Source of the DNA: Vulcanimicrobiota bacterium
Lineage (GTDB): Bacteria > Vulcanimicrobiota > Vulcanimicrobiia > Vulcanimicrobiales > Vulcanimicrobiaceae
Assembly (NCBI GenBank): GCA_027306785.1
Contig: DAHUZB010000005.1
Location: 1-64,000, forward strand
Reading direction: 5' to 3'
DNA: 64,000 nt
Shown here: one piece after another, positions 26,446 through 28,441 of the stretch
Layout: every line of letters starts with the position of its first letter
Position numbering within the stretch: position 1 is the first letter of the stretch
Program-made: the position numbers and the translations under genes
Notes under the pieces: generated by a model
Database searches by the model: none
The model's input: only the letters and a program-made list of their open reading frames with translations
What the model was told of the DNA's origin: nothing

Positions 26446-27000
26446 CTACTCCGCCTCGTCGGGGCGCTGCGAACGAATCGGCTCGAACGGCTTGCCGTCC
26501 GGACCGTAGGCGATCGGCTCGAGACCGCGTCCGTGCAGGAGACGCGAATTGACCGCACCGATGCGGATCAGCATCCGATCGTGGCCGAGCAAGGGGAAGA
26601 GCAGTTCCAGCGGCGGGCCGACGCGTTCGCCCGTGAGCGCCATCCGTACCGCGGCCAGCGCGTCGTCGGGCGCGATGCCGAACTCCGCGGCGATCGCGGG
26701 AAGATCGTGCGCGAGCGGCAGACCGCGCAACTCCGCTTGATGGTCGATGTACTGCCCCACCGAATCGAGGAAGAACAACACGTTGCGGGTGCGAAGCCGC
26801 TCGAGTTCGAGCGCCGGAATCACGCACGCCTCGGCACGCAGCCCGGCGATCCGCGAGAACGCGTCGTCGGCGCTCGCGAGCTCGCCGCCGTACGCATCGA
26901 GAAAGGTATCGATCCAGCGCAGCGCCGCATCGGGCGCCGGAGATTCGAGGAATCCCCACCGCTGCATCGCCGTCATCAGCTGCGCCGCGCTCACGCTCAT
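26446..27000 (-). CDS. Free-standing GltX-type anticodon-binding domain
   Basis: 184 aa that look like the C-terminal, anticodon-binding part of glutamyl-tRNA synthetase. It has helical repeats ending in LRTRNVLFFLDSVGQYI, then ALAAVRMALTGERVGPPLEL and LLGHDRMLIRIG, close to the V-R-x-ALTG...PP...LG-x-x-R-x-L pattern of GltX. There is no catalytic domain: no HIGH, no KMSKS. It sits exactly where gltX stands in the ispD-ispF-gltX-cysE-cysS order and overlaps ispF (ATGA). It may be a decayed gltX or a tRNA-binding accessory protein. The family call is by eye. Confidence 0.7.
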   Translation of the reverse strand: MSVSAAQLMTAMQRWGFLESPAPDAALRWIDTFLDAYGGELASADDAFSRIAGLRAEACVIPALELERLRTRNVLFFLDSVGQYIDHQAELRGLPLAHDLPAIAAEFGIAPDDALAAVRMALTGERVGPPLELLFPLLGHDRMLIRIGAVNSRLLHGRGLEPIAYGPDGKPFEPIRSQRPDEAE

Positions 27001-27488
27001 CGCTCCCGCTTCTCCTCTCGTTCGATCGCGCAGACGGCATGGGCCGCGATCCCGCTGCCGTCTCCGGTATATCCCATACCCTCGCTCGTCTTCGCCTTCA
27101 CGCTCACGAACTCCGAGTCGAGCTCCAGCACCTCGGCGATGCGCGCGCGCATCTGCGGGATGAAGCGCGCGAGTTTCGGGCGGTCGACGACGATCGTGCC
27201 GTCCACGTTGTTGATCGCGTACCCGCGTTCGCGCACGAGCTGCGCGCAGGCCGCGAGCAGCCGCATCGAATCGGCGTCCTTCCAGCGTGGATCGCTATCC
27301 GGGAAATGCCCGCCCAGATCGCCGAGCGCGGCCGCGCCGAGGAGCGCATCGCAGAGCGCGTGCGCGAGTACGTCGGCATCGGAGTGCCCGAGCGCGCCGC
27401 GTTCGAACGGAATCTCCACGCCGCCGAGCACGAGCCGGCGTCCCTCGACGAGTCGATGCGCATCGAAGCCGTGACCGACCCGCGTCAT
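26997..27488 (-). CDS. ispF: 2-C-methyl-D-erythritol 2,4-cyclodiphosphate synthase
   Basis: 163 aa. Zinc ligands Asp9 and His11 appear in GHGFDAHRL and His43 in ALGHSDADVLAHALCDALLG; FPDSDPRWKDADS and the C-terminal VKAKTSEGMGYTG complete the family pattern. Fifth step of the MEP isoprenoid pathway. It overlaps ispD upstream and the GltX-like domain downstream by ATGA junctions. Confidence 0.97.
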   Translation of the reverse strand: MTRVGHGFDAHRLVEGRRLVLGGVEIPFERGALGHSDADVLAHALCDALLGAAALGDLGGHFPDSDPRWKDADSMRLLAACAQLVRERGYAINNVDGTIVVDRPKLARFIPQMRARIAEVLELDSEFVSVKAKTSEGMGYTGDGSGIAAHAVCAIEREEKRER

Positions 27489-28441
27489 GCGCGCGCTCCC
27501 GTTTCGCCGCGGCCCGCATGATGCGAGAAGCGCGCGGTCAGCACCGCGCTTCCGTCGGCGAAGGCTTCGAAGCGCTCGCTGAACCCGCGCAGCGCTTCGG
27601 CGCGCACGTAGGCCCGCACGACGATACCGCGCGGGAGATCGCGTTCGACCGCGTCGATGCGCGCACCGCGGGCTTCGAGTTCGCGCCCGATCGCATCCGA
27701 GAGCGCATCGTCGGCGAAGACTTCCACGAGTAAGATCTCCTCATCGTTCGGAGCGTGATCGGCGCGCTCGCGCAGTAGCAGCTCCGCGTGCGCGAGATCG
27801 TGCGGATGCGTCACTTTGAAATTCTCGCCGCTCGCGGGCACGATCGCGACCTCGACGCCGATCGCTTCCAATAAGGCGACATCGTCGGTCGCCTCGATAC
27901 CCGCGCGGACCGCTTCCGCGTGCGCGCGTTCGAGATCGCGACGCAGGGCGAATTGCGGCGTCTGCGCCGCCCACAACGTCTCGCGCTCCAACGTGCGGCG
28001 CACGGTCATCGTCGCCGGATCGACGAGCTTGACCGTGTCGACGAGCGGCGCGGCGAGCACCGCACCGCGACCCGGACGTACCTCACGCATCCCCGCGCGT
28101 ACGTCCTCGGCGCGAACGAGCGGCCGGGCACCGTCGTGCACGAAGACGGCGCCGCAGGATGCACCGAGTGCGCGCAGGCCGCACGATACGCTCGCCTGCC
28201 GCGTCGCGCCGCCCGCGACCACGCGTACGCGCTGCTGCGGCACGCACTGCGCGACGAGTTCGCGCATCGCCTCGAGCCAGGCTTCCTCGGTTACCACCGC
28301 GAGCTCGACGATCTCGGGCATGCGCGCGAAGGTGCGCAGCGACCAACCGACCATCGGGCAGCCCGCGATCTCGACGAACTGTTTGGGGCGTCCGAAGCGC
28401 GTTCCGCGTCCGGCGGCAACCACGACCGCTCCCCACCTCAT
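27485..28441 (-). CDS. ispD: MEP cytidylyltransferase IspD with EF-G domain V-like C-terminal extension
   Basis: 318 aa; normal IspD is about 225-240. The nucleotidyltransferase core is complete: AAGRGTRFGRPKQFVEIAG (Lys20), VVAGGATRQASVSCGL, VFVHDGARPLV and the C-terminal ENFKVTHPHDL. Residues about 232-309 form an extra domain (EEILLVEVFADDALSDAIG..., ending GFSERFEAFADGSAVLTARF) that matches the pattern of elongation factor G domain V (alternating strands and helices, final L-R-S-x-T-x-G-x-A-x-x-T-x-x-F). It catalyses CTP-dependent activation of MEP. What the extension does is unknown. It overlaps the PIN/TRAM gene and ispF (ATGA). Confidence 0.92.
   Translation of the reverse strand: MRWGAVVVAAGRGTRFGRPKQFVEIAGCPMVGWSLRTFARMPEIVELAVVTEEAWLEAMRELVAQCVPQQRVRVVAGGATRQASVSCGLRALGASCGAVFVHDGARPLVRAEDVRAGMREVRPGRGAVLAAPLVDTVKLVDPATMTVRRTLERETLWAAQTPQFALRRDLERAHAEAVRAGIEATDDVALLEAIGVEVAIVPASGENFKVTHPHDLAHAELLLRERADHAPNDEEILLVEVFADDALSDAIGRELEARGARIDAVERDLPRGIVVRAYVRAEALRGFSERFEAFADGSAVLTARFSHHAGRGETGARA

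Follow-up and report, generated by a model that had tools for sequence, protein, structure and literature searches.

A divergent EF-G domain V fused to the C terminus of IspD in one bacterial family

IspD, an essential enzyme of isoprenoid synthesis, is a drug and herbicide target. To our knowledge, domain V of elongation factor EF-G is hardly known outside the GTPases of translation and of the spliceosome and their relatives linked to the ribosome. The only fusions of IspD mentioned in the accessible part of one source are the bifunctional IspDF proteins (PMC10663253). A sequence-only reading of the locus analyzed here had claimed that no fusion of a MEP-pathway cytidylyltransferase with a translation-factor module is described; none was found in the literature that we searched, nor was any description of IspD joined to EFG_C, the Pfam family of EF-G domain V. 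For IspD, this combination represents a novel domain architecture.

The fusion lies in a window of 64,000 nucleotides, the whole stretch of Vulcanimicrobiota DNA that was analyzed, and its parts are as follows.

27485-28441, minus strand: ispD open reading frame, 318 amino acids, uninterrupted by a stop
27764-28441, minus strand: IspD catalytic core, residues 1-226, assigned from Pfam, NCBIfam, conserved sites and fold
27938-27940, minus strand: core residue R168, a candidate contact with the domain, from presence/absence co-variation
27746-27763, minus strand: short linker, residues 227-232, extending the last core helix (predicted at 213-229; DSSP on the AlphaFold model)
27512-27745, minus strand: EF-G domain V-like module, residues 233-310, from the EFG_C match and the model, with the order beta-alpha-beta-beta-alpha-beta
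27488-27511, minus strand: C-terminal tail, residues 311-318, variable in the alignment and modeled with low confidence
26997-27488, minus strand: ispF, in its own reading frame (Pfam YgbB, E 1.9e-66), sharing 4 bases with the end of ispD

Pfam places IspD (PF01128) at residues 5-224 (E 3.5e-56, 190.9 bits against a cut-off of 27), and NCBIfam assigns the core to ispD through TIGR00453 (204.3 bits, above the cut-off of 181.3). The earlier claim that the core is complete by about residue 226, with the protein running on to 318, therefore stands. Residues R15, K20, D103, R106, T136, R153 and K209, which we take to be the counterparts of the E. coli IspD active-site residues, are invariant in an alignment of 61 orthologues, drawn from 96 IspDs. 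In the AlphaFold model, the core superimposes on B. subtilis IspD (5hs2) with Z 30.0 over 223 residues (rmsd 1.8), and the top structural matches of the full model are IspD structures and IspD-like relatives, with the alignment confined to the core. The core is a complete, putative cytidylyltransferase.

Beyond the linker, Pfam matches EFG_C (PF00679) at residues 236-309 when the whole protein is searched (E 5e-4, 20.4 bits), and the C-terminal 91 amino acids alone match it at E 3.4e-5 (24.2 bits). Since both scores fall below the gathering score of 27.9, the window copy is best regarded as a divergent EFG_C homologue and not as a curated member. Orthologous copies do pass the cut-off: three of five IspD-borne copies matched reach 41.4, 32.0 and 29.7 bits, and two of five domain-bearing proteins checked reach 38.8 and 28.6 bits. 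EFG_C was matched at E <=0.1 by 29 of the 31 orthologous domains in our domain alignment (best E 3.3e-12), which covers all of the 32 distinct domains except L032, nearly a duplicate of L031. When a profile of these 31 domains was run against all PDB chains, 30 of the 31 matches at E <=1 were EF-G or its relatives (best E 5e-5), and the sole exception was squalene synthase (E 0.81). Against local proteins, the same profile matched 17/17 EF-G loci (E 4e-9 to 1.1e-5), and none of the 13 other EFG_C loci fetched reached E <0.01.

Profile-profile comparison with EF-G domain V gave a probability of 96.4% over 78 columns. When the EF-G alignment was cut into 18 tiles, only the three that overlap domain V exceeded 1% (11.9, 82.6 and 96.1%); none of 60 column-shuffled controls exceeded 3.2%, and reversing the alignment gave 0.1%. 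With 15 of the 18 tiles below 1% and the shuffles this low, a generic ferredoxin-like match was ruled out. The YigZ/IMPACT domain DUF1949 (PF09186) was found in 0 of 21 genomes, with controls at 9/14.

The predicted fold points the same way. AlphaFold, supplied with the 61 orthologues, modeled the two-domain chain with a pLDDT of 92.8 and a pTM of 0.90, and residues 233-310 in that model follow the order listed above. Modeled alone, the domain has a pLDDT of 83.5, and its best 50 Foldseek matches are all translation-type GTPases or complexes containing them: EF-G, BipA, eEF2, mitochondrial EF-G and a spliceosomal GTPase subunit, some matches being named by complex only. A second fold comparison of the isolated domain gave Z scores up to 13.7, with EF-G, BipA and LepA tied. 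The sequence-only reading had placed an extra domain resembling EF-G domain V at 27515-27748, that is, residues 232-309, in agreement with our coordinates, and had named an HMM comparison with EFG_C and a structure prediction as its checks. Both uphold the resemblance: Pfam, the reverse profile search of the PDB, the controlled profile-profile comparison and the fold comparison agree. The IspD tail domain is of EF-G domain V ancestry.

As for the immediate source of the domain, four further EFG_C matches in the genome all lie within frames of 627-705 codons, which gives no sign that a local translational GTPase was broken. The domain had no match in the phages searched. One locus on a viral contig (L063) carries a 21-residue match to it.

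Eight domain residues (E240, D263, R267, L269, P270, R276, A277 and T302) are invariant in 32/32 domain-bearing full-length IspDs. EF-G shares E240 and A277 in 17/17 sequences and T302 in 15/17, whereas D263, R267, L269, P270 and R276 form a new invariant set that is atypical of EF-G. The EF-G signature GYAT-LRS-T-GRA is mostly replaced, with few positions kept (e.g., G286, A299 and T302), and the second R of the EF-G RRG motif is also largely lost. The IspD-borne domain is also more acidic, with a mean net charge of -6.6 against -3.0 for EF-G domain V. Because the signature is largely lost, we consider it very unlikely that the domain has kept its binding to the ribosomal factor-binding site and links IspD to translation or to the state of the ribosome; the change in charge likewise speaks against this reading. 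In its favor are the true EF-G domain V ancestry, nearest to canonical EF-G (17/17 EF-G loci against 0/13 others), and the contacts of EF-G domain V with the sarcin-ricin loop, H43/H44 and uL6 that are given in the accessible part of PMC12008383.

From strand alternation, we infer that the invariant polar residues are mostly on the side of the sheet that the helices do not cover. Such an open face might bind a small molecule, for instance a nucleotide or an isoprenoid diphosphate, and tune IspD, in the manner of the ferredoxin-like ACT domains of amino-acid enzymes. The charged invariant residues D263, R267 and R276, absent or atypical in EF-G, sit on consecutive strands, in keeping with a ligand site. 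Yet they could equally form a protein interface, and no ligand-binding relative was found. Moreover, as far as we know, EF-G domain V binds RNA and protein and not metabolites, so that ligand sensing appears rather unlikely.

The domain is present in 35 of 149 genomes of the phylum and 15 of 70 genera, all in the family of the window genome. Within the order, IspD was found in 102 of 103 genomes; 34 of the 102 IspD-bearing loci examined have an in-frame extension of 82-100 amino acids, and a 35th (G064) is split by a contig end. The remaining loci end between -2 and +25 amino acids past the core, barring truncated, interrupted or contig-run-off loci. In one of these, G008 (L094), the ispD frame stops about 64 residues short of the usual core end, through either an assembly error or a real change. 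A survey of IspD lengths in the phylum had been proposed beforehand, with a frameshift artifact named as a concern, and the recurrence of the extension in 35 of 149 genomes disposes of that concern; with the extension in frame at 34 loci and under purifying selection, a sequencing frameshift or wrong gene end was ruled out. A degenerate-pattern scan of genome contigs, which reaches close relatives only, returned 22 loci, all from uncultured organisms; the phyla named are Eremiobacterota, Vulcanimicrobiota and WPS-2, and the rest are labeled just "bacterium." Among the genomes searched, the architecture is so far restricted to one bacterial family.

The gene neighborhood is stable. In most of 20 genomes compared, the order is hemW, PIN/TRAM, ispD, ispF, (gltX piece), cysE and cysS, whether the domain is present or absent. 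In the window, the gltX piece is a free-standing protein of 184 amino acids with a GluRS anticodon-binding domain (26446-27000, minus strand; Anticodon_2, E 8e-6), two genes downstream of ispD. With the C-terminal part of the full-length operon GluRS in a relative (G065) it shares 66% identity, and it is barely alignable to the full GluRS that the window genome itself encodes elsewhere (G000:C29). Matches occur in 72 of 103 genomes of the order, most at 63-87% identity, some of them in long frames that may be full-length. In much of the family, the catalytic half of the operon gltX seems to be gone, its tRNA-binding half being strongly conserved. In G049 (L193, 7533-8810), the match of the operon gltX to tRNA-synt_1c is split into two pieces that abut, an internal stretch of the profile being absent; this gene might represent a halfway stage in the decay. 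In G090 (L202, 7547-11033), about 3.5 kb separates ispF from the GluRS-domain gene; the two are adjacent in other relatives.

On a tree of 95 IspD cores, from which the interrupted L094, the X-containing L124 and all partial or run-off loci were excluded, the pattern of domain presence needs nine changes, at least three of them forced by well-supported branches. One same-genus genome (G069) shows a clean absence. The domain has been gained or lost several times, and several of the changes are probably losses. On average, two cores are 61% identical and two domains 50%; since the pairwise identities of core and domain correlate at 0.89, the data fit inheritance of core and domain as one unit with repeated loss. 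In ten pairs, dN/dS was 0-0.26 for the domain and 0.08-0.26 for the core. Ratios this low indicate that the domain is under purifying selection, which implies a function. A chance fusion that left the domain as a neutral passenger might account for the several changes on the tree, yet we regard this as extremely improbable, given a dN/dS as low as that of the core and eight invariant residues across 15 genera.

What this function may be is suggested in part by the core itself. Eight IspD core positions differ in frequency by at least 0.5 between domain-bearing and domain-less proteins; a single position does so in IspF (90 sequences). At position 168, 24 of 32 domain-bearing IspDs have a basic residue (R, K or H), against 0 of 63 IspDs that lack the domain; the domain-bearing exceptions are six genomes of one clade and two others. 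The position was first picked from the frequency comparison and later ranked in a scan of all 226 columns, in which it alone had a charge shift of constant direction across the four presence/absence contrasts; position 60 shows an equally consistent shift in hydropathy. An independent-pair test of core/domain co-variation was not significant, with only three pairs on well-supported branches and hence little power. The co-variation points weakly to docking on IspD itself rather than on IspF. The pTM of 0.90 suggests, for its part, that the two domains have a defined relative placement. Because position 168 co-varies with the domain and the pTM is high, docking on the protein's own core is suggested.

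We therefore tentatively favor, with somewhat less than even confidence, a scenario in which a copy of EF-G domain V fused to ispD became an accessory domain that packs on the core and stabilizes or modulates the enzyme. An ancestor within one Eremiobacterota/Vulcanimicrobiota family would have acquired the copy at the end of its ispD; the copy would then have retained its fold and lost most of the conserved EF-G signature. As an accessory domain, it would most likely pack on its own IspD core, or on the other subunit of the dimer, close to helix 167-180, and so stabilize or modulate IspD. The face for contact or ligand binding would comprise the strand residues E240, D263, R267, R276 and T302. 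The docking, the role of this face and the modulation of activity or stability are the parts of this scenario that we infer. Against it stand the losses of the domain; because several changes on the tree are probably losses, including that in G069, they suggest that basic IspD function does not require the domain.

The sequence-only reading had raised both regulation of isoprenoid flux and tethering of IspD. As a tether, the domain could hold IspD to another enzyme, such as IspF or IspE, in a loose metabolon that takes the place of the IspDF fusion of other bacteria. The domain sits between IspD and IspF, in the slot held by IspF in fused IspDF, and directly precedes ispF; across the examined loci with the domain, the distance from the ispD end to the ispF start ranges from -4 to +20 bases. 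We nevertheless think a tether unlikely, with only one IspF position associated with the domain; in addition, the accessible part of PMC5821942 reports that complexes of IspD, IspE and IspF went undetected in B. subtilis or E. coli.

Regulation of IspD by the accessory domain, if real, would give the MEP pathway a further control point. A more far-reaching version, in which EF-G domain V was recruited onto IspD as a metabolic regulator that senses a ligand, a partner or the state of translation and gates isoprenoid carbon flow, seems to us rather doubtful. In either case, a translation-factor domain is here conserved in a metabolic enzyme with a new invariant residue set, and close relatives with and without it (G070 and G069) provide a natural experiment.

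Compared with known systems, the protein resembles IspD (PF01128, TIGR00453) in its complete core, its invariant active-site positions and its operon place beside ispF, and departs from it in carrying about 80 further residues as a C-terminal domain; among the solved bacterial and plant IspDs listed, chain lengths are 202-236 amino acids. It is like the bifunctional IspDF in bearing a fused C-terminal domain at the same IspD junction. Unlike in IspDF, however, that domain is not IspF, which has its own reading frame (26997-27488), and the protein does not belong to the IspDF group. Human ISPD/CRPPA (4cvh, 391 amino acids) likewise holds an IspD fold within a longer chain, its residues 45-335 aligning with model residues 1-232 at Z 27.1 (222 aligned, rmsd 2.0); its C-terminal part is presumably a different domain from the EFG_C-like module. 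To EF-G domain V (EFG_C, PF00679), the module is similar in sequence profile, fold and element order. Yet it differs from EF-G in its replaced signature, its new set of D263, R267, L269, P270 and R276, its more acidic character and the lack of an attached GTPase, Pfam giving only IspD, NTP_transf_3, EFG_C and one below-cut-off match in the chain.
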